Part shown: positions 28,314 through 54,616 of the stretch, piece by piece | Layout of the letters: every line of letters starts with the position of its first letter | How positions within the stretch are numbered: position 1 is the stretch's first letter | Assembly (NCBI GenBank): GCA_945883235.1 | Contig: CAMCXF010000002.1 | Location: 1 to 64,000 of the forward strand | DNA from: Phenylobacterium deserti | Lineage (GTDB): Bacteria; Pseudomonadota; Alphaproteobacteria; Caulobacterales; Caulobacteraceae | Reading direction: 5' to 3' | Length of the DNA stretch: 64,000 nucleotides | The notes under the pieces: model-generated | Seen by the model: the letters and a program-made list of their open reading frames with translations, nothing else | What the model was told of the DNA's origin: nothing | Database searches by the model: none | Program-made: the position numbers and the translations under genes

Positions 28314-29324
28314 GTGAGTATGGCCTCGACGATCAAGGACGTGTCGGCCATTGCCGGCGTCTCCATGAAGACCGTCTCGCGCGTGCTCAACAAGGAACGC
28401 TACGTGTCTGAAAAGACGCGCTTGCGGGTCGAACGTGCGGTCGCGGAACTGAACTTCCGGCCCAGCGTCGCGGCCCGCATCCTGGCGGGCAAGCGCAGCT
28501 ATCAGATCGCCTTGATCTACGACAACCACAGCCCCCACTACATCCACCAGATCCAGACTGGTGTCTGGGCCCGTTGCATTGAGGAAGGGGTGCGGCTGCT
28601 GGCCCAGCCGTCGGACGCGGCCTCGCCAATTCTCGCGCGCGAAATCGGTGGTCTGATCGATCAGACACAGGTCGACGGTGTGATCCTCTCGTCACCGGTG
28701 ACCGACGCGCCGGGGGCCCTGGAGGAGCTGGAAAAACGCGGCATCCCCTATGTGCGGATCTCGCCGGGCACCGACTATGATCGCAGCTCATCGGTCTCGA
28801 TGGATGATGTCCAGGCCGCCGACGATATGACCAGTCACCTGATCGCACTGGGCCACCGGCGGATCGGCTTTGTCGTAGGACACGCCAACCACACGGCCAG
28901 CGACCAGCGCCTGTTCGGCTACCGTCGCGCGCTGGACAAGGCGGGGCTGGCATTCGAGCCCAAATATGTGCGGCCAGGCGCCTTCGACTTCAGTTCGGGC
29001 GAGGCGGCGGGCGATGTCCTGCTCGATCTGGCCCAGCCGCCAACCGCGATCTTCGCCAGTAACGACGATATGGCTGCGGGCGTTCTGACCGTTGCCCATC
29101 GGCGCGGGATGTCGGTGCCGCGTGATCTCTCTGTGGTCGGGTTTGATGACACAGCGCTGGCCAGCCAGCTGTGGCCTCCGTTGACAACTGTGCGCCAGCC
29201 AACGCGCGACCTCGCCTATGCGGCGGCGGGACTGCTGTTTGACGCCGCCGATGAAGTGGTTCACCGCCGTTTGCCGCACGAATTGGTACTGCGGGCCTCA
29301 ACAGCGGGGCCCCGTAAGTCCTGA
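28314..29324 (+). CDS. LacI-family transcriptional repressor
   Basis: A 336-residue regulator with an N-terminal LacI HTH (STIKDVSAIAGVSMKTVSRVLN) and the hinge-helix region PSVAARILAGKRS, followed by a periplasmic-binding-protein-like sugar domain containing VDGVILSSPVT, GHRRIGFVVGH and VPRDLSVVGFDDT. The start is GTG 28314 after GAAGG; ATG 28320 is possible. It lies directly upstream of the AKR/LLM operon, and a LacI-type palindrome sits between them at 29392, so it very likely represses that operon. A near-identical palindrome at 41359 suggests a second target. Confidence 0.92.
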   Translation: MSMASTIKDVSAIAGVSMKTVSRVLNKERYVSEKTRLRVERAVAELNFRPSVAARILAGKRSYQIALIYDNHSPHYIHQIQTGVWARCIEEGVRLLAQPSDAASPILAREIGGLIDQTQVDGVILSSPVTDAPGALEELEKRGIPYVRISPGTDYDRSSSVSMDDVQAADDMTSHLIALGHRRIGFVVGHANHTASDQRLFGYRRALDKAGLAFEPKYVRPGAFDFSSGEAAGDVLLDLAQPPTAIFASNDDMAAGVLTVAHRRGMSVPRDLSVVGFDDTALASQLWPPLTTVRQPTRDLAYAAAGLLFDAADEVVHRRLPHELVLRASTAGPRKS

Positions 29325-29391
29325 CTTTCTCCGTCGCCGGACGGGTTTCTCGACAGGCCGTCTTGCCAATGTCACGGCCACAAGCCTATCA

Positions 29392-29411
29392 ATATGACAG
29401 CGCTATCATAT
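29392..29411. promoter_or_regulatory. LacI-type operator upstream of the AKR/LLM operon
   Basis: ATATGACAGCGCTATCATAT is a 20-bp palindrome with a central CG step and only one mismatched pair. Such even, CG-centred palindromes are typical LacI-family operators. It overlaps the upstream ATG at 29410, which argues that translation begins further down, at 29476. The same site is found at 41359-41376. Confidence 0.75.
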
Positions 29412-29475
29412 GGCGTTCAGGCGGTCGGTAAACCAGCCGGCAATGTCTGATGACCCATCGAGGACTACACCGGGC

Positions 29476-30390
29476 ATGACGACCAGCACCCTGCCGAAAC
29501 CTGCCGCCACCCGGCCTCTGTACGCGGGAGGCCCGAGTGTCTCGTCGGTCGCCTGGGGCATGTGGCGTTTCGCCGGTGATGACCTGGCGGCCGCGACGGC
29601 TCGCGTGTCTGCCGCTCTCGACGCGGGCGTCACCTTGTTCGACACCGCTGACATCTATGGCCCAGACAACAATGAGCCTTTCGGGGCCTCAGAGGTGCTG
29701 CTGGGTCGCGTGCTCGCCGCCCATCCGACGCTAGCCGCCCGCATGGTGATCGCCACCAAGGGCGGTATCAGCATGGGCGTGCCCTACGATTCCAGCGCGG
29801 CCTATCTGGCCTCTGCCATCGATGCGTCCCTGACGCGCATGGGCTTGGATCACGTGGCGCTGTGGCAGATCCACCGCCCCGACATGCTGACCCACCCGTC
29901 CGAAGTGGGCCGCGCTCTGGAAACTGCGCACAAGGCCGGCAAGATCGGCGCGATCGGGGTTTCCAACTTCACACCGTCGCAGGTGGAGGCGCTGGCCGCC
30001 CACAGCGCCTTGCCCATCGTCTCATGCCAGCCGGAGTTCTCGCCCCTGGCCATCAGCCCGCTGACCAACGGGGTGTTGGATCAGGCGATGGCGCGCAACA
30101 TGACCGTGCTGGCCTGGTCGCCGCTGGGCCAGGGACGCCTGGGCGACCCGAAGGACGAGCGCGCACGCGCTGTCGCCGCCGCCCTCGACGTCAAGGCCGC
30201 CGAGGCCGGCGTCAGCCGGGCCGCCGCTGCCTACAGCTGGATCATGGCGCATCCGTCTCAGCCTATCCCCATTGTCGGCACACAGACCCCGGCCCGCATC
30301 GCCGAGATCCCCGACGCCTTCAAACCGCGCTGGACCCGGGCGGAATGGTACGCCGTCCTCGTCGCCTCCATGGGAGAAAATCTGCCATGA
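29476..30390 (+). CDS. Aldo/keto reductase, candidate 6-oxo-glucose reductase (SmoB-like)
   Basis: A 304-residue AKR (or 326 from ATG 29410, which the operator overlaps). The catalytic tetrad is visible: Asp and Tyr in FDTADIYG, Lys in VIATKGGIS, His in LWQIHRPD. GVSNFTPSQVEAL and VLAWSPLGQG are further AKR landmarks. It shares an ATGA overlap with an SsuD-like monooxygenase. In the sulfoquinovose monooxygenase pathway an AKR (SmoB) reduces 6-oxo-glucose to glucose after a monooxygenase (SmoC) removes sulfite. The pairing here fits that pathway, but no residue seen here proves the substrate. Confidence 0.88.
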   Translation: MTTSTLPKPAATRPLYAGGPSVSSVAWGMWRFAGDDLAAATARVSAALDAGVTLFDTADIYGPDNNEPFGASEVLLGRVLAAHPTLAARMVIATKGGISMGVPYDSSAAYLASAIDASLTRMGLDHVALWQIHRPDMLTHPSEVGRALETAHKAGKIGAIGVSNFTPSQVEALAAHSALPIVSCQPEFSPLAISPLTNGVLDQAMARNMTVLAWSPLGQGRLGDPKDERARAVAAALDVKAAEAGVSRAAAAYSWIMAHPSQPIPIVGTQTPARIAEIPDAFKPRWTRAEWYAVLVASMGENLP

Positions 30391-31460
30391 CCAACCCCGC
30401 CATGCCTCCCTGCGAGATCAGCTGGTTCTCGGCGCTCTGCGACGACGACTATGAGTTCCTGGGCGTGCCCGACCCGATGCTGAAATCCAGCTGGGAGCAT
30501 TGCCGCGATATCGTGATGCAGGCCGAGGCGGGCGGGTTCGACAACATCCTGCTGCCGTCCGGCTATGAGCTCGGCATCGACACCACCGCCTTCGCCGCAG
30601 CCATTGCGCCGATGCTGAAGCGCATGCGCTTGTTGATGGCCGTCCGCATCGGCGAGATGTGGCCCCCGCAACTCGCTCGCCAGATCGCCACCATCGACCG
30701 ATTGCTGGGCGGGCGGCTTACCGTCAACATCATCTCATCCGACATGCCGGGCGAGAAGCAGGCGTCGGCCCCGCGCTACGCCCGCACCGTCGAGGCGATG
30801 AGCATCCTGAAGACCATGCTGAACGGCCAGCCGCTGGATCACCAAGGCGAATTCTGGAAGCTGAAGCTGGATCCTCCCCGCGTCACCACGCTGTCGGGCA
30901 AGGCGCCGCTGCTCTATTTCGGCGGCCTGTCGGAAGACGCTCGCGAGGCCGCCGCCAAGGGCTGCGACGTCTTCCTGATGTGGCCGGACAAGAAGGAGAC
31001 CATCACCGACATCATCGCCGACATGACATCCCGCGCGGCGAAGCATGGTCGCACGCTGAAGTTCGGCTACCGCGCCCACATGATCGTCCGTGACACCGAG
31101 GCCGAGGCCCGCGCCGCCGCCGATCGCCTACTCTGCAAGCTGGACGCCGCTACCGGCGACGCGATCCGCGCCAAATCTCTCGACTCCACCTCTGCCGGAG
31201 TACAGGCCCAGACCGCACTGCGCGAAGCGGCCGCCGATGACGGCTATGCCGAAGCCAACCTGTGGACCGGCGTCGGCCGGGCCCGTTCCGGCTGCGGCGC
31301 GGCCATCGTCGGCAACCCCGACCAGGTACTGGCCAAACTCAACGACTACCGCGCCATGGGCATTGAAGCGTTTATCCTGTCTGGCTATCCACACGCGGCG
31401 GAAGCGGACCTGTTCGCGCGCCACGTATTGCCGAGTATCGAGCACGGGCCGCTAGTCTGA
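30387..31460 (+). CDS. LLM flavin-dependent monooxygenase, candidate sulfoquinovose monooxygenase (SmoC-like)
   Basis: A 357-residue luciferase-like monooxygenase related to alkanesulfonate monooxygenase SsuD: EISWFSALCDDDYEFLGVPD at the start, MQAEAGGFDNILLPSGY, GGRLTVNIISSDMPGEK (SsuD-type loop), and a C-terminal GIEAFILSGYPHAAEA like that of SsuD. Such enzymes use FMNH2 and O2 to cleave C-S bonds of sulfonates. It is translationally coupled to an AKR and under a LacI-type operator, which suggests a sugar sulfonate substrate, that is sulfoquinovose. No flavin reductase (SmoA) is adjacent, so FMNH2 must be supplied from elsewhere. Confidence 0.9.
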   Translation: MTNPAMPPCEISWFSALCDDDYEFLGVPDPMLKSSWEHCRDIVMQAEAGGFDNILLPSGYELGIDTTAFAAAIAPMLKRMRLLMAVRIGEMWPPQLARQIATIDRLLGGRLTVNIISSDMPGEKQASAPRYARTVEAMSILKTMLNGQPLDHQGEFWKLKLDPPRVTTLSGKAPLLYFGGLSEDAREAAAKGCDVFLMWPDKKETITDIIADMTSRAAKHGRTLKFGYRAHMIVRDTEAEARAAADRLLCKLDAATGDAIRAKSLDSTSAGVQAQTALREAAADDGYAEANLWTGVGRARSGCGAAIVGNPDQVLAKLNDYRAMGIEAFILSGYPHAAEADLFARHVLPSIEHGPLV

Positions 31461-37120: not shown

Positions 37121-39103
<1,983 letters not shown>

Positions 39104-39936
39104 CCAATTCTTCGAAGTCGGCTGCCACCTCGCCAGGAGAGAGCCGGATATCGGGTCGACGGGTCCGGAACAGAAGGGCTGTGGCCCTTCAATATTCTGT
39201 TCTCGCCCATGAAACGCTTTGTGATCATGCAAATCAGGGACCACGCTGACCTGGTCGGAACAAGCGCACCGCGTTTCCAATCCTGCAGAGCCAATGCTCT
39301 ACAAAATTACGCAGCGTCTCCTCCCGGCATCTGGAAAACCAGACTGAACGGCGTGACACCTGGGGCTTCCGAGCATTGAGGGAGACATCATCATCCACGC
39401 AGGGGGCGCGCCCGGAAACCGCAGCGGCCCATCGATGTCTATCAAACGCGCGCTAAACCCGCACGAGGGCCAGATGGCGTGCTGCGGGGTCTATGTCAAG
39501 ATGATGACGTGTTCGCGGAGCGGCCGTGATGTCGCAGGTGGGCGGACCTGTGGTGCCTGTAGAGGTACGGAGAGGCTGAACGGCGCGCGGCCTTGGCTGG
39601 CGGGGTGTTATGCTTGGCTGACTCGGCAGCCGTCGGTCAGCACCCTGCTGGTGCTGGTTTGTCAGGGGATGGATTTTCGGCGTTTGTTACAAGTAGCTCT
39701 ATAACCAGATGTATTGTTTGCCGCGCTGGCATCGCAGATAGGGATGGACTGATAAGGCCATGGATATCTATTAAGTTATTGGTTTTATTGTTATAAAATG
39801 AATATCAAGGAGACGGGAAGCCTTCCCGGGGGGGGGGTGGGCCAGGTTCGACAGCCAGCCTGGATCGGCTGTCGGGTTGCAAAACCTCATGTACATTCTC
39901 GGGCATCGAGATCGCAGCCGCAATCCCGACCAACCC
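39104..39936. other. Long gap upstream of rpoD with an AT-rich tract
   Basis: No convincing gene is present in these 830 bases. An 89-codon frame at 39435-39704 has no ribosome-binding site and no recognisable sequence. The segment at about 39690-39815 is clearly more AT-rich than its surroundings and ends at CGGGAAGCCTTCCCG (39815-39829) and a run of ten G (39828-39837). The part next to rpoD is its leader and promoter region; I cannot identify a -35/-10 pair with confidence. Confidence 0.55.
39173..39190 (-). promoter_or_regulatory. Hairpin in the rpoD leader
   Basis: GAAGGGC (39173-39179) and GCCCTTC (39184-39190) form a 7-bp perfect stem with a 4-base loop, about 70 bases upstream of the rpoD start. 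It could be a leader structure or a terminator-like element; no T tract follows on the minus strand beyond TGTT. Confidence 0.45.
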
Positions 39937-41214
39937 TCAGTGCAACGACACCGGCAGCACATCCCCCGCGTCCGCGCCGTCGCCCACAACCTGGATGTTC
40001 GGCAGCAGCAGGTGGATCCAGGCCAGGGCCAGCAGGTAGGACATGCCCGCGAAGACGAACAGCGGGTAGTAGCCGAGGCCAGCGGTCAGGACGAGGCCGG
40101 CGACCTTGACGATGGTCATGCCGCCGATGTTGCCGCAGAAGGCGGCGAAGCTTGTCACGCGACCGACCTTGGTCTTTTCGGTGACGTCGGCGATCAGGGC
40201 GAAGAGGTTGGTCGAGAAGCCCTGGTGGGCGGCCAGAACCAGCGCCAGGATAGCGGCGGCGCCCCAGGCGGTGGGTGCCTGGGTGGCGAAAGGCAGCACC
40301 AGCACCAACAGGCCACTGACCAGCATGGCCAGTTTGCGCACGCGATTGACGGCCACGCCCCGGTTCAGGAAATAGGTGGCTGCGGCCCCGCTGACCAATG
40401 CGCCCAGCGCGCCACCTGCGTAGGCGAGCGCCAGGGGCGGGCCGATGGCGATGCCGGTCAGGCCGTACTGGCGATTGAGAAAGTCGGGCATCCAGAACAG
40501 CAGCAGCCACCAGGTCGAATCGCTGAGCAGTTTGGCCCCGGAGATGGCCCAGGTGGCCTTGTCCTTCAGGATGGAAGGCCTGGGCGCGGTGGGGGCGAGC
40601 TCGACCGGCGCCGCCGGCTTCGCGACGACATCGCCGAAATTGGTTTTCCGCGTCGAGATCATCCAGACCACGGACCAGACGATGCCGGCGATCCCGGCCA
40701 TCACGAAGGCACCGCGCCAGCCGAACGGAATGGCCATGAACGGGATCAGGATCGGCGCGCTGATGGCTCCCACGCTGGAGATCGCGTTGATCAGGCCAAA
40801 GCCCACGGAGCGCTGATTGGGCGGCAGGATGGTGGCCACGGTCTTGACCGCAGACGGCGTGGCCATGGCTTCGGTGATGCCCAGACCAATCCGGCAGAGC
40901 ACGAACTGGTTGAAGGTGTGCGCAAGGCCGTGGAACATGGCGGCGATGCTCCAGGTGAACACCCCCAGGACATTGGCCCATTTGACGCCGATCTTGTCGA
41001 CAAGGGGTCCGGAGATCAGCAGCGCCACCGCCATTGACCCCTGGAACCAGGCACCAAGGGTGCCGTAGTCGTCGTCAGTCCAGCCCAGTTCGGCGGCCAT
41101 CTCAGGCTTCAGCACCGAGATCACCTGGCGATCCACCAAGGCCAGAATGCCGGCGACGGCCAGCAGGATGAACAGGAACCACTTGTTGAAACTGACGGGG
41201 CGCGGGTCGGTCAT
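39937..41214 (-). CDS. MFS transporter, anion:cation symporter type
   Basis: A 425-residue transporter with 12 predicted helices. The opening FNKWFLFILLAVAGILALVDRQVISVLKPE and the motif GLGITEAMATPSAVKTVATILPPNQRSVGFGL match the anion:cation symporter branch, whose members carry hexuronates, galactonate and other organic acids. GGAGG six bases before ATG 41214 supports the start. It is divergent from the Gfo/Idh/MocA gene, and the operator at 41359 lies between them, so both may answer to the same LacI repressor. Sulfoquinovose or another sugar acid is a plausible cargo. Confidence 0.88.
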   Translation of the reverse strand: MTDPRPVSFNKWFLFILLAVAGILALVDRQVISVLKPEMAAELGWTDDDYGTLGAWFQGSMAVALLISGPLVDKIGVKWANVLGVFTWSIAAMFHGLAHTFNQFVLCRIGLGITEAMATPSAVKTVATILPPNQRSVGFGLINAISSVGAISAPILIPFMAIPFGWRGAFVMAGIAGIVWSVVWMISTRKTNFGDVVAKPAAPVELAPTAPRPSILKDKATWAISGAKLLSDSTWWLLLFWMPDFLNRQYGLTGIAIGPPLALAYAGGALGALVSGAAATYFLNRGVAVNRVRKLAMLVSGLLVLVLPFATQAPTAWGAAAILALVLAAHQGFSTNLFALIADVTEKTKVGRVTSFAAFCGNIGGMTIVKVAGLVLTAGLGYYPLFVFAGMSYLLALAWIHLLLPNIQVVGDGADAGDVLPVSLH

Positions 41215-41358: not shown

Positions 41359-41376
41359 TAAGTCAGCGCTGTCATA
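41359..41376. promoter_or_regulatory. Second LacI-type operator, in the divergent MFS/oxidoreductase promoter
   Basis: TAAGTCAGCGCTGTCATA is a CG-centred palindrome with seven of nine pairs matching, and it shares the core CAGCGCT and the TCATA half with the site at 29392-29411. It lies about 20 bases before the oxidoreductase start and 145 bases from the transporter start. Confidence 0.68.
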
Positions 41377-41397
41377 TTGGATTTTGTGGAGGTGCCG

Positions 41398-42486
41398 GTG
41401 CCAAAGGTGGTTCGTTACGGTCTGGTCGGCACAGGGCTGATGGCGGGCGAGCATATCCGCAACCTCGCCGTCACCCCCGGCGCGGTCGTCACCGCCATTG
41501 CAGATCCGGTTGAGCAGTCCCTGGAATGGGCGCGTAAGACGCTGGGCGGCAAAGCCGACGGTGTCACCGCCTTCACCGACAGCGCGGCCCTGGCCCGCAG
41601 TGGCCTGGTGGATGCGGTGATCGTTTCCAGCCCCAACTACACACATCGCTCTGTGCTGGAGCCGCTGTTCGACGCGGGCCTCGCAATCCTTTGCGAGAAA
41701 CCGTTGGCGACCACGCTGGACGATGCCCGTTGGGTGGCCGAGCAGGCTGACCGCGCCACCGCGCCGTTCTGGACCGCGATGGAATACCGCTACATGCCGC
41801 CGGCGGTCGAGTTCATTGCCCAGGTCCATGCTGGCCGGGTCGGTGACCTGCGGATGCTTTCAATCCGGGAGCATCGCTTTCCTTTTCTGAAGAAGGTGGG
41901 CGACTGGAACCGGTTTGCGCACAATACCGGCGGCACCATGGTCGAAAAGTGCTGTCATTTCTTTGACTTGATGCGTTTCATCACTGGCTCGGAAGCCGTG
42001 CGCGTCTACTGCTCCGGGGCCATGGACGTGAACCACCTGGACGAACGCTACGACGGACGTCGACCCGACATCATCGACAACAGCTACACCACCGTCGAGT
42101 TTGCAAACGGCGTCCGCGCCATGCTGGACCTGTGCATGTTCGCTGACGGCGCCGAGAACCAGGAGGAGATCACCGCCGTGGGGGATCAGGCCCGTCTGGA
42201 CGTGCTGATCCCCGAGGGCGCGATCGTCTTCTCGCCGCGCGTAGGCCGTGGGGCAACGAAGCAGGTGGAGCGTCGCGTGGTTGCCGTGGATCCGACCGCC
42301 CTGAAGGTGGGCACCCACCACGGATCAACCTTCTATGAGCACCAGCGCTTCATCGCCGCCGTGCGCGGGGAAGGGTCGGTGGAGGTCACCGCCCACGACG
42401 GGCTGATGGCGGTCGCCATCGGAACCGCCGCTGAAATCAGCGCGCGTGAGAAACGTGTGGTCGAACTGGCCGAATTGGGATTCTGA
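41398..42486 (+). CDS. Gfo/Idh/MocA-family protein, candidate NAD-dependent sulfoquinovosidase
   Basis: A 362-residue two-domain oxidoreductase. The start is GTG 41398, five bases after TGGAGG. The Rossmann motif is YGLVGTGLMAGEH; the conserved CEKPLATTLDDAR carries the Lys; the C-terminal domain has MEYRYMPPAVEFIAQVHAGR, then GGTMVEKCCHFFDLMRFITG with the usual active-site His. Some members of this superfamily are NAD-dependent glycosidases, including the GH188 sulfoquinovosidases. Its operator, shared with the SmoB/SmoC-like operon, makes that role attractive, but a simple sugar dehydrogenase is the alternative. Confidence 0.88.
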   Translation: MPKVVRYGLVGTGLMAGEHIRNLAVTPGAVVTAIADPVEQSLEWARKTLGGKADGVTAFTDSAALARSGLVDAVIVSSPNYTHRSVLEPLFDAGLAILCEKPLATTLDDARWVAEQADRATAPFWTAMEYRYMPPAVEFIAQVHAGRVGDLRMLSIREHRFPFLKKVGDWNRFAHNTGGTMVEKCCHFFDLMRFITGSEAVRVYCSGAMDVNHLDERYDGRRPDIIDNSYTTVEFANGVRAMLDLCMFADGAENQEEITAVGDQARLDVLIPEGAIVFSPRVGRGATKQVERRVVAVDPTALKVGTHHGSTFYEHQRFIAAVRGEGSVEVTAHDGLMAVAIGTAAEISAREKRVVELAELGF

Positions 42487-42512: not shown

Positions 42513-42531
42513 ATATGACAGCGTCGGACAT
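42513..42531. promoter_or_regulatory. Degenerate operator-like site before the TonB receptor
   Basis: TATGACAGCGTCGGACATA begins with the exact left half of the 29392 operator (TATGACAGCG), and its ends TATG/CATA are mirrored, but the right half is altered and the spacing is odd. It lies 37 bases before the receptor start and could be a weaker third site of the same repressor. Confidence 0.4.
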
Positions 42532-42567
42532 ACGGCGAACTTACAAAAAGACGGATTAGGGGGCGAT

Positions 42568-44826
42568 ATGAACAAGTCCAAATTGGTGGCAGGTGCCGGC
42601 ATAGCAGCCGTCTTGCTAGGGATCCCAGCGGCCGCGCAGTCGCAGGAAGCGACGTCGTCGGACTCGGGTGTCAATCAGATCGAGGACGTCGTGGTCACCG
42701 CCCGCCGACGCTCAGAATCGCTCCAGGAGGTTCCGATTGCGGTGAGTTCGCTCAGCGGCAATGTCGTGCGCGAGCAGAACCGAAACAGCGTCCCGGACCT
42801 GATCACGCTCATCCCCACGATCACGCTCCGGCCTCAGAACTCGGCCAAGGACACCGTCCTGCTGATCCGTGGCTTGGGGACAATTACGACATCGCCGGGT
42901 GCGGAGCCCAGCGTGTCGATGGTTCTTGATGGCGTCGTGCTCGCGAGGCCGGGCCAGATGGTTTCGGAATTGGTCGACCTGGAGCGCATTGAAGTTCTGC
43001 GCGGTCCCCAGGGAACCCTGTTCGGCAAGAACGCGTCAGCCGGCGTGATCAACATTATCACGGCGAACCCGACGGCCGATACCAGCGCATTTATCGAGGC
43101 CAGCTATTATGGCGGTGACGAGCATCGGCTTACGATGGGCGTCAACGGTGAGATCATCCCGGGCCTGCTGAGCGGCAGGCTGTCCGGCGTGACCTCCGGA
43201 TTTAAGGGGGATGTCCGGAACATCTTCCTGAACGAGACCCTCAGTGATCGCCAGTCCGACGGATTTCGCGGCAAGTTGCTGTTCACGCCCAACGAGGATC
43301 TGAGCATCCTCTTGGGTGCGGACTATCTCTACGTGGAGAACCGCGGCAACAGCGGGATGTATATCGCCACATCGACCGTGGCCTATCCGAGCGGCGTGCG
43401 AACGCAGAGCGCAACACTTCCGACCATCCTTCAAAGTGTGGGGATCACGCCGGGCTTTAGAAACCGGCAGGTCGCCCAGAACACGCTTCCCCAGTTCAAG
43501 GACGCGTTCGGGGGCGCGGTGGCCCAGGTCGACTACAAGATGGGCGAATTCGATCTGACCGCGATCAGCGGATATCGGTTCTGGAGAAGCACGCAGGGCG
43601 GGGATCTGGACGGATTCGCGACGCTCACGACGGCCACGCCGACGCAGCAGATCGACCTCGGCCACGTCAACTCGAAACAATACACCCAGGAGATCAGGCT
43701 CGCCTCGCCCAAGGGTGGCATGATCGACTACCAGATCGGGGTCTACTATTTCCGAGCCGTCAATCGCGAAGACTACAGCCGCGAGACGACTCAGCTCATT
43801 GCGGGCAACAGGGTCAGGAACTTCGGCCTCAACAATTTTGGGACCATCCAGAACAACTATTCTGTGTTCGGTGAGGCAAACGTCAATTTCTCGGAGGCGT
43901 TCCGCGCCATCGCTGGACTTCGTCTGGTGAAGGACAAGTTGAGCTACTACAGCAACCGGGTTTCCACCTCGGCGGTCGCCGTTCCGGGCATTCTACCCGC
44001 GTTCGCGGGCCAGGACTCCACCAGCGTCACTGACTACGCGAGCCGCGTCGGCTTCCAGTATGATGTGAGCGACGACATCCACGCCTACGCCACGTACTCC
44101 CGTGGCTACAAAGGCCCAGCATTCAACGTGTTCTTCAACTTCTCCGCCCGCGAGACGAACACACTCAAGCCCGAAACATCGGATGCGTTCGAGCTAGGTC
44201 TGAAGTCCAGCCTGCTGGACCGACGACTTCAGGTGAATGTCGCGCTCTTCAACGATCAAGTGGCGAACTTCCAAGCCAACCAGCCGGATCTGGTAGCCGG
44301 AACCGTGGTCACGCGCCTGATCAATGCCGGCGATGTCTCGACCAAGGGTATCGAAGTCGAAGCCATTGCAAATGTCACCAACAAGCTGACGATCAGCGCC
44401 GACTACGCCTACGTGAAGGCCAAGGTCGACGACTTCCTTTGCCCGGTTGGGGCGGCCGTGAGCTGCGACATCGATGGAAAGCCTCTGCCCTATGCGCCCA
44501 AGCACAAGATTTCGGTGCAGGCGAGGTACGAGGCATATGACTCGGAGCGATATAGAGTCAATCTGACCGGAAACTATACTTATCAATCAAGCCAGCAGAA
44601 CAGCATCGCCCAGACGCCAGACACCATCGCACCGGGATATGGTATCGTGAACGGCATTCTCTCAGTCATGGACAAGCAAAGTGGCTGGGAAGGCCGGATT
44701 CTTGTCAGGAATTTGTTCGATAAGTTCTATCGCGCGACCTACGCGCAGGGTAACGGCGGCTTGCTCGGCGGACTTCCTCGCGACTACAAGCGTTACTTCG
44801 GCGTGTCGGTTCGCAAGGACTTCTGA
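42568..44826 (+). CDS. TonB-dependent receptor
   Basis: A 752-residue outer-membrane receptor with all parts intact. It has a signal peptide (LVAGAGIAAVLLGIPAAAQS), the TonB-box region VEDVVVTARRRSESLQEVPI, plug motifs ALVD-type LERIEVLRGPQGTLFGKNAS and VINIITANP, many barrel strands, and a C-terminal FGVSVRKDF ending in Phe for barrel assembly. The LRGPQGTLFGKNAS form is common to sphingomonad and caulobacterial carbohydrate or aromatic receptors. It follows the Gfo/Idh/MocA gene by 80 bases and precedes the VOC-PhyH-epimerase-symporter genes, so it is presumably the outer-membrane entry for their substrate. Confidence 0.93.
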   Translation: MNKSKLVAGAGIAAVLLGIPAAAQSQEATSSDSGVNQIEDVVVTARRRSESLQEVPIAVSSLSGNVVREQNRNSVPDLITLIPTITLRPQNSAKDTVLLIRGLGTITTSPGAEPSVSMVLDGVVLARPGQMVSELVDLERIEVLRGPQGTLFGKNASAGVINIITANPTADTSAFIEASYYGGDEHRLTMGVNGEIIPGLLSGRLSGVTSGFKGDVRNIFLNETLSDRQSDGFRGKLLFTPNEDLSILLGADYLYVENRGNSGMYIATSTVAYPSGVRTQSATLPTILQSVGITPGFRNRQVAQNTLPQFKDAFGGAVAQVDYKMGEFDLTAISGYRFWRSTQGGDLDGFATLTTATPTQQIDLGHVNSKQYTQEIRLASPKGGMIDYQIGVYYFRAVNREDYSRETTQLIAGNRVRNFGLNNFGTIQNNYSVFGEANVNFSEAFRAIAGLRLVKDKLSYYSNRVSTSAVAVPGILPAFAGQDSTSVTDYASRVGFQYDVSDDIHAYATYSRGYKGPAFNVFFNFSARETNTLKPETSDAFELGLKSSLLDRRLQVNVALFNDQVANFQANQPDLVAGTVVTRLINAGDVSTKGIEVEAIANVTNKLTISADYAYVKAKVDDFLCPVGAAVSCDIDGKPLPYAPKHKISVQARYEAYDSERYRVNLTGNYTYQSSQQNSIAQTPDTIAPGYGIVNGILSVMDKQSGWEGRILVRNLFDKFYRATYAQGNGGLLGGLPRDYKRYFGVSVRKDF

Positions 44827-47345: not shown

Positions 47346-48791
47346 GTGACCACAGCCGTAACCGACGTTGAGCGCGCCCCGCCCCTCGGCCTGGGCACGA
47401 AGCTGCTCTACGCCGTGGGCGGCACAGCCACCAATCTCAAACACAGGGCGATCTCGTCGTTCCTGGTGATCTTCTACAATCAAGTGGTCGGCCTGCCGCC
47501 GCAGGTGGTCGGCGGCATCCTGATGATCGCTCTGGTATTCGATGCGGTGCTCGACCCGCTCATCGGCCAGGTCTCTGATAATCTTCGCTCCCGCTGGGGC
47601 AGGCGCCATCCGTTCATGCTCGTCTCTGCGGTGCCCTACGCTGTGGCCTTCTTCTTTCTGTGGAACCCACCGGAAGGGTGGAGCCATGGGGCTCTGGCGG
47701 TCTATCTGGCGATCTGTCTGTTCTCGGTGCGGTTCTTCGACACCTTCTTCGAAGTCCCCCACCAGGCGCTCGTACCTGAGCTGGTCAAGGGCTACGACGA
47801 GCGCACCAATCTGATCGCGCTGCGCCAGATCTTCGTGTTGTTCGGTGGCGCGGGCATGATGATCGCGGCGCTGCAGTTCTTTCTCAAGGAGAACGCCGAC
47901 GGATCCGGCGGGGTGCTGGCCCGTGATGGCTACTTCCTCTACTCGATGACCGGCGCACTGATCATCTTCGCCGCCATCATTTTATCAACGGTGGGGACGG
48001 CGCGCCGGATTCCCTACCTGTCGACGGCGCCGAACCGGCCGATCACTTTCCGGGGCATGTTGTCGGAGGTCGTCGCAACCCTCAACAACCGGGCTTTCAT
48101 CGTCGTGTCGCTTTCGGGTTTGTTCATAGCTGTGGCGGCGGGCGCTCAGAGCGGGCTCGACATGTATTTCGGCATCTACTTCTGGGGGCTTAGTCAGGGT
48201 CAACTCGCTGTGCTGGCGACGATGAGCCTGACCGGGGGGTTGGCCGGCGTGGCGCTGGCGACCGTGCTCGGCCGGATGCTCGGCAAGAAGTTCGGGGTGC
48301 TCCTGGCCTCAATGACGGGTCTCCTTGTCCACATCACGCCCATGTCTCTGCGGCTACTGGGACTCGCTCCGGAGAACGGGACCTCGGCTCTGTTCCTGGT
48401 GCTGTGCAGCCAGGAGTTCGCCCACGCGACTTTGGCGGCCGCGTCCGGGATCCTGACGGCCTCACTCATCGCTGACGTGGTCGAGGATGCTCAGGTGCGC
48501 ACCGGTCGTCGCTCTGAGGGCCTCCTGCTGTCCGCGAATGGTCTGGTCCGGAAGATGGTCTCCGGCGCCGGCGTGTTCACAGCCACGACCATTCTGGCGT
48601 TCAGCCAGTTTCCTGACGACGCCAAGCGCGGTCAGGTCCCGGAGTCGGTGTTGACCAACCTGGGCCTGACCTACATCCCCACCGTCGTGGCGCTCCAGGG
48701 GATCGCGATACTGCTTCTGTTTGCCTTCAACATTAATCGGCGGAAGCACGAGGCCAACCTGGAAACGCTTCGGTCGCGGGGCTTGAACTAG
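47346..48791 (+). CDS. GPH-family sugar:cation symporter (MFS)
   Basis: A 481-residue transporter with 12 predicted helices. The pattern LLYAVGGTATNLKHRAISSF, the acidic motif FDAVLDPLIGQVSDNLRSRWGRRHP and VPHQALVPELVKGYDERTNLI are diagnostic of the glycoside-pentoside-hexuronide (MelB-like) family. It starts at GTG 47346 after GGGAGAG and closes the TonB receptor-to-symporter cluster. It would carry a glycoside or sugar derivative across the inner membrane for the PhyH/epimerase enzymes. Confidence 0.92.
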   Translation: MTTAVTDVERAPPLGLGTKLLYAVGGTATNLKHRAISSFLVIFYNQVVGLPPQVVGGILMIALVFDAVLDPLIGQVSDNLRSRWGRRHPFMLVSAVPYAVAFFFLWNPPEGWSHGALAVYLAICLFSVRFFDTFFEVPHQALVPELVKGYDERTNLIALRQIFVLFGGAGMMIAALQFFLKENADGSGGVLARDGYFLYSMTGALIIFAAIILSTVGTARRIPYLSTAPNRPITFRGMLSEVVATLNNRAFIVVSLSGLFIAVAAGAQSGLDMYFGIYFWGLSQGQLAVLATMSLTGGLAGVALATVLGRMLGKKFGVLLASMTGLLVHITPMSLRLLGLAPENGTSALFLVLCSQEFAHATLAAASGILTASLIADVVEDAQVRTGRRSEGLLLSANGLVRKMVSGAGVFTATTILAFSQFPDDAKRGQVPESVLTNLGLTYIPTVVALQGIAILLLFAFNINRRKHEANLETLRSRGLN

Positions 48792-48842
48792 ACTCTGTTT
48801 CGAGGGCGCCCCGGCTCCAGAATGCCCGGTTTACGCCAGGCC

Positions 48843-50018
48843 TCACAGCTTCAGCACATGCTTGGCGATGATGTTGCGTTGCACCCCATCGGAGCCGCCG
48901 GCGATGCTGGCGGCGCGGGCTTCCAGGTATCGGGTCATCTCGGGCTGGGCCCAGTCCGGGCCGATGGTCTGGGCCTGGCCGACCGTCTCGGGGAACCAGG
49001 GCGCGGCGTAGGGGCCGGCGCATTCCACGAAGAACTCGGTCACCCGCTGCACGATGTCGGTGCCTTTCAGCTTCAGCATCGACGACTGGGCACCCGGTGC
49101 ACCGCCGGCTTCGACCTCCGACAGGGTGCGCAGTTCGGTCATGGCCAGGGCCTGAAGCTCGACCTGCGCCCATCCCAGCCGGCTGACGAACCCGGCGTCC
49201 TGCAGCAGGGTGCCGCCGTCCGAACCCGGTAGTTCCGATGCCGCGAGCCGAATGCGTGCGAGCATGTCCAGGGACAGCGAGACAAACGCCTGACCCGTTC
49301 GCTCGTGCGTCAGCAGACCCTTGGCCACCGTCCAGCCCTCGCCCTCGCGGCCAATGCGGTTTTCGACCGGCACGCGCACGCCGTCGAAAGTCACGCCGTT
49401 GAACTGATGCCGCCCATCGATGGAGATGATCGGCCGCACCGTCACGCCGGGACTGCGCATATCCAGCAGCAGGAAGGTGATTCCGGCCTGGCGCTTGGGC
49501 TCGTCGGAGGTGCGGGTCAGGCAGAACATCCAGTCGGCCTTGTGCGCGCCGCTGGTCCACACCTTTTCACCGTCCACCACATAGTCGTCGCCGTCGCGCA
49601 CCGCCCGGGTGCGCAGCGAGGCCAGGTCCGAGCCGGCACCGGGCTCGGAATAGCCCTGACACCAGCGGACGCGGTCATGAAGGATATCCGGCAGGAACCG
49701 CGCCTGCTGTTCCGGCGATCCATAGGCGAACAGGACGGGGGCCAGCATGCCGGGTCCCATGCCACCCACCTGGGCGGGAAGGCCGGCATTCATGGTCTCG
49801 CGTTCCCAGATGAAGCTCTGGGTCGGCGTCCAGCCAGGTCCACCGAACTGGGCGGGCCATTTGTTGACGGCCCAGCCGCGCGCCATCAGCGCCAGATGCC
49901 AGCGCTGTTCGTGGTCGCGGCTTTGATCGTAGGGGTCGCCATCGGGAAAGGTCTCTGCGGCCAATGCGCGAACCTCATCGCGGAAGGCGATTTCGGTTTT
50001 CGAGAGGCTCAGGTCCAT
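48843..50018 (-). CDS. Acyl-CoA dehydrogenase
   Basis: A 391-residue FAD enzyme. Typical segments are WCQGYSEPGAGSDLASLRTR and GEKVWTSGAHKADWMFCLTR, VENRIGREGEGWTVAKGLLT, and the C-terminal SIAGGSDGVQRNIIAKHVLKL, where ordinary family members have a GGT.E.QRN ending. It introduces a 2,3-double bond into an acyl-CoA. The chain length is not evident; members of this group often act on steroid-derived or branched acyl-CoAs. It is divergent from the hot-dog protein gene at 50092 with about 70 bases between, so the two are probably co-regulated. Confidence 0.92.
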   Translation of the reverse strand: MDLSLSKTEIAFRDEVRALAAETFPDGDPYDQSRDHEQRWHLALMARGWAVNKWPAQFGGPGWTPTQSFIWERETMNAGLPAQVGGMGPGMLAPVLFAYGSPEQQARFLPDILHDRVRWCQGYSEPGAGSDLASLRTRAVRDGDDYVVDGEKVWTSGAHKADWMFCLTRTSDEPKRQAGITFLLLDMRSPGVTVRPIISIDGRHQFNGVTFDGVRVPVENRIGREGEGWTVAKGLLTHERTGQAFVSLSLDMLARIRLAASELPGSDGGTLLQDAGFVSRLGWAQVELQALAMTELRTLSEVEAGGAPGAQSSMLKLKGTDIVQRVTEFFVECAGPYAAPWFPETVGQAQTIGPDWAQPEMTRYLEARAASIAGGSDGVQRNIIAKHVLKL

Positions 50019-50091
50019 GGACGGGGTCCGCCTTCTATTATATTCCTGGTCAATAAGAACAATGCCTGAAGCCGGTCAAGGGAGACAGCGG

Positions 50092-50973
50092 GTGACGAAA
50101 GACGCGTTTATGGTCGAGGACCGCGGCGGGATCCTGGCGGGACCCGTCCGCCGTCCGGTGAACTTCTCTCGCAACGCCAAGGGCTCCATCCACGACGACG
50201 CCACGGCCCAGACGCTGGGCTTTCGCGGCGGCACGGTGGCAGGGAATATCCATTTCGAGCAGTATACGCCGCTATTGCTGGAGCGCTTCGGATCGAGTTG
50301 GCGCAAGCGTGGCGGTCTCTCGCTGCACTTCGTCAACGCCACCACCGATGGCGAACCGGTTCAGGTCTTCGCGGGGCCCGTCGAAGAGGTAGGCCCCGAT
50401 CTGCGTCGCGCCATGGTCTGGATGGAAACGCCGGAGGGCGTGCGGGTCAACGAGGGGACGGCGTGGGTCGGTGGTGACGATCCGAACTCCACCTTGCGGA
50501 TGCGCATTGCCGCACAACGTCCGGCCAGCGACCTGCGGATCCTGAAGTCCTCAAAGGTGGGTGACAGCGTCAGCGACGTTCCCAGTCGCCTGGATGGCGC
50601 GAGGTCGCTGCTTCGGGTGGCGGACATCACCGAGCCCATGGCGGAATACACCGACGCAGCCCTGTTCGGCGAGCGGGTGGCTGCGCCTGCGGTGGCGATC
50701 GACGCGCTGCGCGCCGTAGAGGGCTCGCTCTATGCGGCGGTGACGGACTTCGTCGGCATGTTCGGGGCCATCGAGCTTCAGTACCTGGATGGTCCGATCT
50801 TCCTCGATCACGACTATCTGGCCGACGCTACGGTGATCGCGGTCGGCGAGTCGCCCAAAACCGAAGTCACCTGGTACGAAAGCACCCTGCGGGACGCCAC
50901 CGACAAGCGGGTGGTCGCGCGCATGCTGATGATGAGCCGGCTGCTGAAGGCCTCGTCGCCACTGTGGACGTGA
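50092..50973 (+). CDS. MaoC-like hot-dog-fold protein
   Basis: A 293-residue protein. The start is GTG 50092, eight bases after GGGAGA; ATG 50062 in frame is possible. The segment IHDDATAQTLGFRGGTVAGN, followed by HFEQYTPLL, is like the active-site helix of MaoC hydratases (Asp and His around a Gly-rich turn), and a second hot-dog-like half follows. It likely hydrates or hydrolyses an acyl-CoA made by the divergent acyl-CoA dehydrogenase. The exact reaction is inferred only. Confidence 0.65.
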   Translation: MTKDAFMVEDRGGILAGPVRRPVNFSRNAKGSIHDDATAQTLGFRGGTVAGNIHFEQYTPLLLERFGSSWRKRGGLSLHFVNATTDGEPVQVFAGPVEEVGPDLRRAMVWMETPEGVRVNEGTAWVGGDDPNSTLRMRIAAQRPASDLRILKSSKVGDSVSDVPSRLDGARSLLRVADITEPMAEYTDAALFGERVAAPAVAIDALRAVEGSLYAAVTDFVGMFGAIELQYLDGPIFLDHDYLADATVIAVGESPKTEVTWYESTLRDATDKRVVARMLMMSRLLKASSPLWT

Positions 50974-51037
50974 CGGAAGGCTGTCGGTCACCGCCGGGCG
51001 CGCTTAGGGTGCGGCAAAACAGGTTCCGAGACGAAAC

Positions 51038-52495
51038 ATGACATCGGATACGATCCAGTGGGCGGTCTTCGCCGGACTGACCCTGGTGATGGCGCTGGCC
51101 ACCTGGTGGCAGGTGGGCCGGATGGGCGGGCGATCCACCGACAGCAACAGCGAGTTCTTTCTGGCGGGCCGCAATCTGACCTGGCCGTTCGTGGCCGGGT
51201 CGATCACCCTGACCAATCTGTCGACCGATCAGCTGGTTGGCATGAACGGCAACCAGATGCTCCTGCTGGCCTGGTGGGAGCTGTCCGCCGTGGCCGGACT
51301 CGTCATGTTGGCCTTCGTTTTCCTGCCCATCTACTACCGCTACAACTGCACCACGACGACGGAACTGCTGGAGCGGAAGTATGGCTCCAAGCACCTGCGT
51401 GCGACGGTCTCGGTGCTGTTTTTGCTGGGCAATGTGTTCATCTACCTGCCGATCATGGCCTACACGGGCGCGCTGTTCCTGAAGACCATGTTTGTGTCCA
51501 GTCCGCCGCTGCTGGTGATGGCCGGAGGTATAGCCGCGGTGGGGGCGGCCTATACCATCCTGGGCGGGCTCAGGGCTGTGGCGGTCTATGACACCCTGTC
51601 GGGCGTCGGTGTGCTGGGCATGGCAGCGGCGGTGACCATCCTGGCGATGGCAGCCATCGGCTTTGACTTTTCCGGCATCCCGGCCGAGCGGTTGTCGATG
51701 GTGGGCGGACCCGACAGTCCGATCCCCTGGCCGACGCTGCTCACGGGCATGATCTTTATCCAGATGTTCTACTGGTCCACCAACCAGACCATCACCCAGC
51801 GGGCCATGGCCTCACCGACCCTGCGCGAAGGCCAGAAGGGGGTGATGGCTGCGGTGGTGATCCGCATCGTGTTTGTGCCGGCCATCGTGGTGATTCCGGG
51901 GGTCTGCGCCTACAAGCTTTTCGGCGACCTGGGCGACGCCACCTATGGCCGGATTGTCGCCGAAGTGATGCCCAGCTGGCTGTCCGGTGCCTTCGCCGCC
52001 TTCATGGCTGCGGCGGTTCTGACCAGCTACACCTCGGTGCTGAATTCGTCGGTGACGCTCTATGTGTGCGATCTGCACGAGAGTTTCATCGCGCCGAAGC
52101 CCAACGTGAAGCAGCTCAATACCGTCATCTCGCTGACCTTCATGGCGCTGTCGATCATGCTGGTGCCGGTCTATTCAGGCGCGGCCTCGATCATCAATCT
52201 GGTGCAGCAGCTGAACGGCCTGCTGTCGATGCCGATCCTGTCGGCCTTCATCCTGGGCCTGGCGTTCCGCAATGTGGATGCGCGGGCGGCAATGACCGCG
52301 GTCGTGTTCGGCGTGTGCCTCTATGCGGTCTTCACGTTCGTCTGGACCCCGATCCACTATATCCACCTGATGCTGGTGACCCTGATCGCCTGTCTGGGCG
52401 TCGGACTGGCGATCAATCGCTGGCTGTTCGGGCGTCATGCATCGCTGGCCATCCCGTTCGGCAGCGACATCCCGAAGCCCGGGGTGGCATCCTAG
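51038..52495 (+). CDS. Sodium:solute symporter (SSS family, vSGLT-like)
   Basis: A 485-residue transporter of the sodium:solute symporter family with about 13-14 helices. It has AGRNLTWPFVAGSITLTNLS, the LSTDQLVGMNGNQ segment, NCTTTTELLERKYG, and the SSS signature-like region in LGGLRAVAVYDTLSG. Members of the SGLT branch carry sodium with galactose or glucose. It is the first gene of a plus-strand operon and its stop is immediately followed by the alpha-galactosidase ATG, so it probably imports galactosides or galactose. Confidence 0.9.
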   Translation: MTSDTIQWAVFAGLTLVMALATWWQVGRMGGRSTDSNSEFFLAGRNLTWPFVAGSITLTNLSTDQLVGMNGNQMLLLAWWELSAVAGLVMLAFVFLPIYYRYNCTTTTELLERKYGSKHLRATVSVLFLLGNVFIYLPIMAYTGALFLKTMFVSSPPLLVMAGGIAAVGAAYTILGGLRAVAVYDTLSGVGVLGMAAAVTILAMAAIGFDFSGIPAERLSMVGGPDSPIPWPTLLTGMIFIQMFYWSTNQTITQRAMASPTLREGQKGVMAAVVIRIVFVPAIVVIPGVCAYKLFGDLGDATYGRIVAEVMPSWLSGAFAAFMAAAVLTSYTSVLNSSVTLYVCDLHESFIAPKPNVKQLNTVISLTFMALSIMLVPVYSGAASIINLVQQLNGLLSMPILSAFILGLAFRNVDARAAMTAVVFGVCLYAVFTFVWTPIHYIHLMLVTLIACLGVGLAINRWLFGRHASLAIPFGSDIPKPGVAS

Positions 52496-54616
52496 ATGTC
52501 CGAGTTCCACCGGCTGGATGGCGGCGGCGACACCTTGCTGGTCAGCCTGCAGGAGGGCCGGCCGCATATCGCCTATTGGGGGCCTGAGCTGGCGCAGGGG
52601 GCGGAAGCCAGCCTCGACGCCCGGCTGCTGGATCGCGCGGTTCCGCATGGGATGCTGGATGGCGGCGTGGCGTTTGGCCTGTTCCCCCAGAACGGCTGGG
52701 GTTTTACCGGTGCGGGCGCCTTGCAGGCCCATCGCCCGGATGGCCGGTTCATCACCCAACTTGCCTTTGAAGGTTGCCGCAGGTCAGCGGACGGGATCGA
52801 TCTGGTGTTGGCTGACACCCTCGCCCGGATCGAGGTGACCATCAGCCTCGGGCTGGATGCCGCGAGCGGGGTCGCGGCGTTTCAGACGCGGGTGCGCAAC
52901 GTGGGGCCAGAACCGCTCAATCTTGACTGGGTCAGTCCGGTCGCGCTGGAGGTGCCGGGCGGCGAGGTGCTGGCGTTCAGCGGGCGCTGGGCGCGGGAGT
53001 TTGATACCGAGCGGTTCCGTCCCGGCGCTGGGATCTGGGCCTCGGAATCCCGGACCGGGCGCACCTCGCATCACGCGCCGCCGTTCCTGGTGGTCGGCGA
53101 GGCGGGGTTTGGCGAGCATCATGGCCAGGTGCTGGGCCTGCATCTGGCGTGGAGCGGCGATCATCGGCTGTTCGTCGAGCGGTTGCGTGATGGCCGGTTG
53201 CAGGTGCAGGCGGGCGAGCTGTTCTGGCCGGGTGAGATCATGGTGGAGGCGGGTGAAACCTATCAGACGCCGATGCTTTACGCGGCCCGGTCGGACACTG
53301 GCCTTAACGGGTTGAGCGACCGACTGCACGGATTTGTCCGGGACCGGATTATGGGCGGACGCCTGCGCGCCAAGCCGCGCCCTGTACATTTCAACACCTG
53401 GGAAGCGGTCTACTTCCGGCATGATCTGGAAGAGCTGAAGGCTTTGGCCAATGCTGCGGCCGGCGTCGGTGCCGAACGCTTTGTGCTGGATGACGGATGG
53501 TTCCGGGGACGGAACGATGACAGCGCAGCGTTGGGGGACTGGAGTCCTGATCCGGTGAAGTATCCCGACGGTCTGGGACCGCTGGTGGATCATGTCAGGG
53601 GGCTCGGGCTAGCGTTCGGGCTGTGGGTCGAGCCGGAAATGGCCAATGCCAATTCCGACCTGTTGCGGGCGCATCCTGACTGGATTCTGGGCGAGGCGGG
53701 ACGGGTGCAGCCGTTGGGGCGCGGGCAGTATGTCCTGGACCTGACTCGCCCGGAGGTGTCCGACGCCCTCTTTGCGCAGATCGACACGCTGCTGGCGGGC
53801 AACGCCATCGACTACCTGAAGTGGGACATGAACCGCGACCTGACCCACCCGGCCAGTGGCGGGCGACCTGCCAGCCATGCCCAGACGCTGGCGGTCTATG
53901 CCCTGATCGACCGGGTCCGGGCCGCGCATCCTGACGTCGAGATCGAAAGCTGCGCCTCCGGCGGTGGTCGTGCGGACTATGAAATCCTGAAGCGCACTGA
54001 CCGGATCTGGACCTCGGATTGCAACGACCCCATCGAGCGCCAGTCGATCCAGCGGGCATTCTCAATTTTCTTTCCGCCGGAGGTCATGGGCGCGCATGTG
54101 GGGCCGGCGGACAGCCACACGACGGCGCGGACCACCAGTCTGGAACTCCGGGCCATGACGGCGATGTTCGGGCATATGGGTATCGAGGCCGATGTGCGTG
54201 ACTTCGGCGCTCGCGATCTGGAGGCGCTGACGGCGGCCATCGGGCTTCACAAGCAGATGCGCGGCCTGCTGCACGGTGGCCGACTGGTGCGTCAGGAAGT
54301 GACCGATCCGGGGACAAGTGCCTTTGCAGTCATCGCGGGCTCCGAGGCTCTCGTCAGCGTGGCGCAGGTCGAGACGTCGAAGTCGGGGGCAGCGGCGCAC
54401 CTGCGCGTAACCGGTCTGGATCCCCTGACGCTGTACGATGCGCGCTTGCTCAACCCGCCGAAACGTCCGCGCGCGGCCATGAAGCAGGTCCCCGCGCTGG
54501 CAAGCGGTGAGACTCTGCGAGCGACGGGCCAGTGGATCGCGCAATCGGGCCTGCCCATGCCGATCCTGCGCGCCGGCGAGATTGCGGTCCTTCACCTGAC
54601 CCGGAGCGCGGGATGA
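52496..54616 (+). CDS. Alpha-galactosidase (GH36)
   Basis: A 706-residue GH36 enzyme, full length for the family, without a signal peptide, so it acts on imported galactosides such as melibiose or raffinose. The catalytic nucleophile is Asp444 in IDYLKWDMNRDL and the acid/base Asp508 in IWTSDCNDPIERQ. Other landmarks are RFVLDDGWFRGRNDDSAALG, GLWVEPEMANANSDL and ESCASGGGRADYEI. It releases terminal alpha-linked galactose, which would feed the DgoK/DgoA genes of the same locus. The ATG is adjacent to the symporter stop, and its TGA overlaps the next ATG. Confidence 0.96.
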   Translation: MSEFHRLDGGGDTLLVSLQEGRPHIAYWGPELAQGAEASLDARLLDRAVPHGMLDGGVAFGLFPQNGWGFTGAGALQAHRPDGRFITQLAFEGCRRSADGIDLVLADTLARIEVTISLGLDAASGVAAFQTRVRNVGPEPLNLDWVSPVALEVPGGEVLAFSGRWAREFDTERFRPGAGIWASESRTGRTSHHAPPFLVVGEAGFGEHHGQVLGLHLAWSGDHRLFVERLRDGRLQVQAGELFWPGEIMVEAGETYQTPMLYAARSDTGLNGLSDRLHGFVRDRIMGGRLRAKPRPVHFNTWEAVYFRHDLEELKALANAAAGVGAERFVLDDGWFRGRNDDSAALGDWSPDPVKYPDGLGPLVDHVRGLGLAFGLWVEPEMANANSDLLRAHPDWILGEAGRVQPLGRGQYVLDLTRPEVSDALFAQIDTLLAGNAIDYLKWDMNRDLTHPASGGRPASHAQTLAVYALIDRVRAAHPDVEIESCASGGGRADYEILKRTDRIWTSDCNDPIERQSIQRAFSIFFPPEVMGAHVGPADSHTTARTTSLELRAMTAMFGHMGIEADVRDFGARDLEALTAAIGLHKQMRGLLHGGRLVRQEVTDPGTSAFAVIAGSEALVSVAQVETSKSGAAAHLRVTGLDPLTLYDARLLNPPKRPRAAMKQVPALASGETLRATGQWIAQSGLPMPILRAGEIAVLHLTRSAG

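Follow-up and report, generated by a model that had tools for sequence, protein, structure and literature searches.

A predicted LacI-controlled regulon for sulfoquinovose glycoside use with a SmoC-like monooxygenase in Phenylobacterium deserti

In this study, we analysed a 64,000-nucleotide stretch of DNA from Phenylobacterium deserti (contig CAMCXF010000002.1, positions 1 to 64,000; hereafter the window) and relate two blocks of its genes to one pathway. With a probability that we put at about 0.9, sequence comparison identifies them as a LacI-controlled regulon of the sulfoquinovose monooxygenase type (sulfo-SMO, also called sulfo-ASMO) for the use of sulfoquinovose glycosides. The first block holds a LacI-family regulator, an aldo-keto reductase (AKR) and a luciferase-like monooxygenase (LLM); the second, about 8.5 kb downstream and beyond rpoD, holds a major facilitator superfamily (MFS) permease, a predicted sulfoquinovosidase of glycoside hydrolase family 188 (GH188) and a TonB-dependent receptor. 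An earlier, sequence-only reading had placed the three genes of the first block, in agreement with the open reading frames (ORFs) and Pfam matches found here, and had proposed an SMO-type sulfoquinovose operon. That proposal is supported by the SmoC-like identity of the monooxygenase, the linked GH188 gene and co-occurrence across genomes; it was incomplete in that it missed the distant block. We take sulfoquinovose to be the substrate because the GH188 gene carries the same kind of operator and because LLM and sulfoquinovosidase genes co-occur in a survey of 149 genomes. Such a pathway removes the sulfur from sulfoquinovose, an abundant sulfur sugar of plant membranes, and leaves glucose for use. 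It is already known, and the TonB-dependent receptor and the LacI regulon are its less familiar part.

Results

The monooxygenase gene (30387..31460, forward strand; PF00296, 1.8e-46) encodes a protein of SmoC/SquD type, an assignment supported by identity, signature positions and an unrooted tree. Its best relatives in the PDB are 7olf and 7oh2, which we take to be SmoC structures (E ~1e-115), with SsuD 1m41 at 5.6e-54. It is 54% identical to 7olf, 52% to 7oh2 and 72% to a protein of Novosphingobium PP1Y (locus L104), as against 33-38% to five SsuD/MsuD proteins, and is thus nearer in sequence to SmoC than to SsuD/MsuD. Because its identity to solved chains is 52-54%, the LLM fold is in little doubt.

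The sequence-only reading had named a tree of this protein with SmoC and SsuD as its check, with branching beside SsuD as the refuting outcome. In an unrooted tree of 27 rows, 22 SmoC-type rows, the window's included, are split from five SsuD/MsuD rows by a branch of 100/100; the tree was drawn with a midpoint root, and RutA, the Emticicia protein and L087 of an earlier set of 30 rows were left out. The proteins of loci L105 and L106, whose clusters hold Gfo/Idh/MocA, GntR, LLM, AKR, flavin reductase and TRAP genes, group in it with 7olf/7oh2 at 97/96, and their Gfo/Idh/MocA proteins are 43-47% identical to the GH188 of the window. The earlier 30-row tree, with RutA and Emticicia, was poorly resolved, with the SsuD fork at 90/98. 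When five distant LLM proteins from the same genome (~20-30% identity) served as outgroups, with L087 included, the root was left unplaced, and a single SmoC clade was neither rejected nor proved (p-AU 0.27). Among the alignment positions, 37 gap-free ones are common to the window's clade and the 7olf group alone, the other two groupings having 3 and 2, and 41 positions are invariant across the 22 SmoC-type rows with a residue absent from the five SsuD/MsuD rows. W199, R229, H231, R300, Y334 and H336, which we take to be catalytic as in SsuD, are invariant in 27/27 rows and do not discriminate between SmoC and SsuD. Since the outgroups leave the root unplaced, membership in SmoC rests on identity, the 37 shared positions and the partner genes.

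The linked gene at 41377..42486 (forward strand; the true start may lie some codons inside this ORF) encodes a predicted GH188-type, NAD+-dependent sulfoquinovosidase, SqgA-like and of the Gfo/Idh/MocA fold. Its PDB matches are 8qc2 (6.3e-110), 8qc3 (3.2e-107) and 8zn9 (3.5e-99), the next standing at 2e-20; 8QC2 is described as the GH188 sulfoquinovosidase of Kaur et al. 2023 (PMC11465081). The contacts reported for SqgA are K107, Y136, R166, L170, K172, E189, H193 and H321, with R166, L170 and K172 forming the sulfonate site (PMC10755693), and their counterparts in the window, with residue numbers assigned by hand from the alignment, are K108, Y137, R167, L171, K173, E190, H194 and H314. For the published Glu163 there is no exact match; the conserved Glu is, by our count, one position on, at 164 (E165 in the window). 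The sequence-only reading had held that flavin reductase and GH31 were absent. This stands genome-wide for PF01613 and for PF01055 (GH31), of which no member was found in the whole genome; by homology, the role of sulfoquinovosidase falls to GH188 and not to GH31.

Conservation of the gene set was assessed in 81 loci, namely the window and the best 80 of at least 555 confirmed matches; the titles of these relatives mostly name Caulobacterales or Sphingomonadales, others Alphaproteobacteria, Proteobacteria, an uncultured bacterium or Rhodospirillales/Rhodospirillaceae (metagenome-assembled genomes). Genes were counted from graph clusters of ORFs named after one member each, so that an absent label may be a clustering miss; apparent reverse-strand artefact clusters were ignored, and the clusters PhyH and MFS2, named by eye, were not used. 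SmoB occurred in 70 loci, MFS in 61, the TonB receptor in 55, LacI in 49, GH188 in 47, YeiH in 43 and GH31, FMN reductase and SorA in 19 each, and GH188 and GH31 were never together in one locus. Many loci are broken by contig ends; among the 51 long ones (20 kb or more, with the window), 46 carry GH188 or GH31. The two blocks of the window adjoin in L023, L024, L029 and L034, and the annotation of L111 (Sphingomonas paeninsulae) lists MFS, TonB receptor, Gfo/Idh/MocA, LacI, AKR and LLM genes.

The same association was seen in a sample of 149 genomes of the window's family (E<=1e-80), of which 32 had SmoC, 24 GH188 and 11 a GH31 sulfoquinovosidase. All 24 GH188 genomes also had SmoC (Fisher 3e-21), as did 8 of the 11 with GH31, all three genes being present in G046. 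Any sulfoquinovosidase was found in 31/32 genomes with SmoC vs 3/117 without it (Fisher 2e-27); both tests ignore shared descent.

The AKR gene (29476..30390, forward strand; PF00248, 4.6e-51) lies in an operon with SmoC, and its SmoB/SquF-like product belongs to the cluster counted in 70 of the 81 loci. The ATGA at 30387-30390 is common to the AKR stop and the LLM start, in line with the translational coupling reported from sequence alone. Of the 70 loci having both genes (window counted), 48 show this overlap in the reading frame of the LLM gene; the remaining 22 AKR genes end in GTGA. In L095 the AKR that was found lies apart from the LLM gene. The best PDB matches are 7bbz/7bby (~1e-42), which we take to be SmoB, with the YdhF-type 4r9o at 5e-36; identity is 35% to 7bbz and 35-38% across 7bbz and the AKRs beside SmoC in L105 and L106. 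Three segments, DTADIYG (56-62), ATKGG (93-97) and QIHRPD (131-136), presumably hold the catalytic tetrad.

As to flavin supply, no flavin reductase (SmoA/SsuE) was seen within the cluster. In 19 of the 81 loci SmoC is followed by an FMN reductase; the best-matching of these are 50-55% identical to a PF03358 protein encoded at C4:140090, beside a gene that we assigned by eye as ribBA-like, and this PF03358 protein, an unlinked SsuE-type reductase, is a candidate for the supply of FMNH2 to SmoC. The window also encodes, at 5006-6791, the pyrimidine pathway proteins RutA and RutB, yet the genome shows no PF01613 protein, the family to which we assume RutF belongs, and the question of flavin supply extends to RutA. 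According to the review PMC9594981, Novosphingobium aromaticivorans likewise has no SsuE gene in its cluster, and other flavin reductases presumably serve instead; because some sulfo-ASMO clusters are reported in review to lack such a gene, we did not treat a clustered reductase as defining.

The palindromic operator that the sequence-only reading saw ahead of the AKR gene is TATGACAGCGCTATCATA at 29393..29410 (no strand), which ends 65 bases ahead of the AKR start at 29476. A second operator, TAAGTCAGCGCTGTCATA (41359..41376, no strand), lies between the divergent MFS and GH188 genes with two mismatches to TATGACARCGNNNTCATA on each strand, and near-identical sites precede GH188 in L023 and L038. 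The third, operator-like site, TATGACAGCGTCGGACATA (42514..42532, no strand), stands upstream of the TonB receptor with its right half shifted one base outward; ahead of the receptor, L023 and L024 have the similar site TATGACAGCGCCAGACATT and L029 has TATGACAGCGTCAGACAAA, the other printed receptor loci having different versions or none obvious by eye. The core, TGACAGCGCTATCA, occurs nowhere else in the 3.82-Mb genome in exact form. At up to three mismatches it has 19 matches in the window vs 4.6 (standard deviation 2.4) expected, and the longer operator pattern has 90 matches genome-wide vs 38 for the control. Since genome-wide matches are this many, we claim no regulon members outside the window. 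The motif by itself is unconvincing; its position and conservation convince.

In the related loci, we counted the core at up to three mismatches and compared it with the mean of 20 permuted motifs, excluding genes with fewer than 300 bases of upstream-plus-start sequence; the motif was derived from the window, and the trials are not independent, as divergent genes share upstream regions and the genomes are related. The core was found upstream of smoB in 29/66 cases (1.0 permuted), MFS in 26/60 (1.3), YeiH in 19/44 (0.9), the TonB receptor in 16/60 (1.3), GH188 in 16/47 (1.2) and SorA in 3/19 (0.1), with little enrichment ahead of LacI (2/48), FMN reductase (0/19) and GH31 (1/14). Similar operators thus precede smoBC, MFS, GH188, the receptor and YeiH in part of the Caulobacterales and Sphingomonadales relatives, and this recurrence of one palindrome upstream of several pathway genes marks a predicted LacI regulon. 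The sites were found by comparison; binding by LacI, and the ligand, we infer.

Outside the window, a palindromic candidate at C2:146515 was rejected: 0/12 pathway proteins match its 3-kb locus, and it falls inside long ORFs, the longest of which reads by eye like a sensor kinase. The genome has two YeiH-family genes away from this locus (L113 and L114), and around them the core at up to three mismatches was absent from L113 and present once in L114, past the gene end. Linked sulfite oxidation was likewise set aside, the sole PF00174 protein of the genome being only 27-33% identical to the SorA-type proteins of the relatives.

The regulator gene (28314..29324, forward strand) was called as an ORF from GTG 28314, with an ATG at 28320 as the likely start, and matches Pfam LacI (6e-19) and Peripla_BP_3 (8.3e-41). 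In the second block, the MFS permease (39937..41214, reverse strand) matches MFS_1 at 3.7e-49 and TIGR00893 at 5e-40, below the model cut-off, and the TonB-dependent receptor (42568..44826, forward strand) matches the Pfam barrel at 1.4e-43 and plug at 2.3e-14. The RpoD-type sigma-70 gene that sits between the two halves lies at 37121-39280. As these halves adjoin in the four loci named above, a rearrangement may have split the locus in the window. Further on, at 47346-56562, stands a galactoside-type locus with an MFS_2 transporter, a sodium:solute symporter, a GH36 melibiase and a GH42 beta-galactosidase.

Two plasmid-borne relatives of the monooxygenase stand in other surroundings. An LLM protein from an Emticicia plasmid (Bacteroidota; L107, 5947-7122), 46% identical to the window's, has the genes of a sodium/solute symporter and of a GH95 protein as neighbours; the annotation of that stretch lists no AKR, and the LLM protein is possibly a related sulfosugar enzyme. 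On a plasmid of Rhizobium sp. WSM4643 (L103, 7781-10047), the gene of a SmoC-like protein that shares 74% identity with that of the window follows a LacI gene of another kind (24% identity) and has as neighbours genes for SMP-30, a dehydratase, an aldolase and an ABC transporter, a group that we take to resemble the sulfo-Entner-Doudoroff (sulfo-ED) set.

Discussion

From these data we can outline how the system would work. The TonB-dependent receptor and MFS permease would import sulfoquinovosyl glycerol or sulfoquinovose across the outer and the inner membrane, respectively, and GH188, to judge by homology and the ligand residues it keeps, would free sulfoquinovose by an NAD+-dependent oxidoreductive route. 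The sequence relation and partners of the SmoC-type monooxygenase suggest that, supplied with FMNH2 by an unlinked reductase, it splits the C-S bond and yields sulfite and 6-dehydroglucose; the AKR, given its operon position and distant homology to SmoB, would reduce 6-dehydroglucose to glucose. LacI would repress smoBC, GH188 and the receptor through the related sites until a sulfosugar ligand releases it. A published criterion for sulfo-SMO asks for SmoB and SmoC within a window of 10 ORFs (PMC13372026); the two genes are adjacent here, provided that the AKR is indeed of SmoB type.

Several observations weigh against this reading. Our identification of 7olf/7oh2 as SmoC is at odds with their PDB titles, methanesulfonate sulfonatase and alkanesulfonate monooxygenase, and a search of full texts for the two codes returned no paper on these structures. 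The titles of 7bbz/7bby likewise read otherwise than SmoB, and the identity of the AKR to the YdhF-like 4r9o, 32%, is little below the SmoB-type figures. In the outgroup tree the 7olf group was drawn beside SsuD (83/96), with a long-branch warning. In the genome, rated 99.88% complete, no PF01613 flavin reductase was found. At up to two mismatches the operator core has 22 genome-wide matches vs 19 for a reversed control, and the majority of loci in each gene class are without the motif at up to three. Five of the 51 long loci show no sulfoquinovosidase, the Rhizobium locus has no AKR, GH188 or GH31 in its 19-kb stretch (9 kb each side), and G104 has SmoC with neither sulfoquinovosidase. Conversely, G021, G032 and G034 have a GH31 sulfoquinovosidase and no SmoC match at E<=1e-80; they may use another sulfoquinovose pathway.

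Other explanations of the locus have to be weighed against these facts. The monooxygenase could be an ordinary SsuD-type enzyme that scavenges sulfur from alkanesulfonates and stands beside an AKR and a LacI gene by chance, as its best NCBIfam model, alkanesulfonate monooxygenase, would suggest and as the outgroup-rooted tree, which leaves room for a place near SsuD, would permit. That model is matched far under its cut-off (241.5 vs 518.2 bits), and the identity to SsuD/MsuD (33-38%, vs 52-54% to 7oh2/7olf), the 41 SmoC-type positions with residues absent from SsuD/MsuD and the linkage and co-occurrence with sulfoquinovosidases make this explanation very improbable. We give just as little weight to the same machinery acting on a related sulfosugar or glycoside, such as sulfofucose, instead of sulfoquinovose: the LLM protein indeed shares only 52-54% identity with the SmoC-type chains solved by crystallography, the AKR standing much further off, but the linked GH188 keeps all eight published SqgA ligand residues, relatives use GH31 instead, whose one searched representative matches YihQ-type chains (5ohy, 4.8e-283), and the Novosphingobium sulfo-ASMO is reported to have been characterised on sulfoquinovose (PMC9594981).

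The remaining alternative is that chance has placed two separate systems near each other, the LacI-AKR-LLM trio on one side and the MFS/GH188/receptor block on the other. The distance between them, over which lie, among others, rpoD and the gene of an M28 peptidase, fits such a view, whereas their side-by-side position in L023, L024, L029 and L034, the similar operators at both blocks and the 24/24 co-occurrence of GH188 with SmoC argue for one system, so that we regard chance proximity as the least probable of all. A single sulfoquinovose regulon thus remains our explanation of both blocks. More tentatively, and at slightly under even odds, Caulobacterales and Sphingomonadales may have a distinct sulfosugar system in which a dedicated TonB receptor brings sulfoquinovose glycosides through the outer membrane and in which an MFS permease, GH188 (or GH31) and SmoBC stand with it under one LacI repressor.

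Sulfoquinovose is counted among the most abundant organosulfur compounds (PMC12890257), and the present findings point to a sulfolytic route, complete with a sulfoquinovosidase, in some members of the family to which the window belongs (SmoC in 32/149 genomes). Among the papers listed in our literature searches, none connects the sulfoquinovose pathway in its title or abstract with a TonB receptor, with Caulobacter or with regulation by LacI (figures of the primary papers may), and in the main text of PMC13372026, 'TonB' and 'Caulobacter' are absent; as far as these searches reach, the distinct system proposed above would include the first outer-membrane TonB receptor linked to a sulfosugar and would be the first case of a LacI regulon in sulfo-SMO. 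The operator motif could be used to find missing parts (outer-membrane receptor, MFS permease, YeiH exporter), and the passage of sulfosugars across the outer membrane becomes directly testable.

Comparison with known systems

The sulfo-ASMO/SMO pathway has been described in Agrobacterium and Novosphingobium (PMC12890257, PMC9594981). Per the same reviews, the sulfo-ASMO of N. aromaticivorans (SquD/SquF; Liu et al. 2021) is biochemically characterised. Stable-isotope work links Novosphingobium to sulfoquinovose use, with sulfo-SMO predicted there (PMC13372026). As far as these sources describe it, N. aromaticivorans resembles the window in combining an LLM monooxygenase with a PF00248 AKR and no clustered SsuE, and the Novosphingobium plasmid locus L104 shows, by similarity, the order receptor-GH31-LacI-AKR-LLM. 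The window differs in having GH188 for GH31 and its regulon in two blocks, its SmoC being 72% identical to the L104 protein.

The sulfo-SMO system of Agrobacterium tumefaciens (Sharma et al. 2022, as reviewed) shares SmoC- and SmoB-type enzymes with the window at 52-54% (7oh2, 7olf) and 35% (7bbz) identity. Unlike that system, the genome of the window is without PF01613 or GH31, and an MFS permease and a TonB receptor take the place of the ABC transporter given for A. tumefaciens in PMC9594981. GH188 has been reported in sulfo-SMO clusters of Roseobacter clade bacteria (Kaur et al. 2023, PMC10755693); these, as described there, and L105 and L106 have, like the window, a GH188-like gene beside the SmoC and AKR genes. 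Where L105 and L106 carry a GntR regulator, an annotated flavin reductase family protein and a TRAP transporter, the window has LacI, an MFS permease and a TonB receptor.

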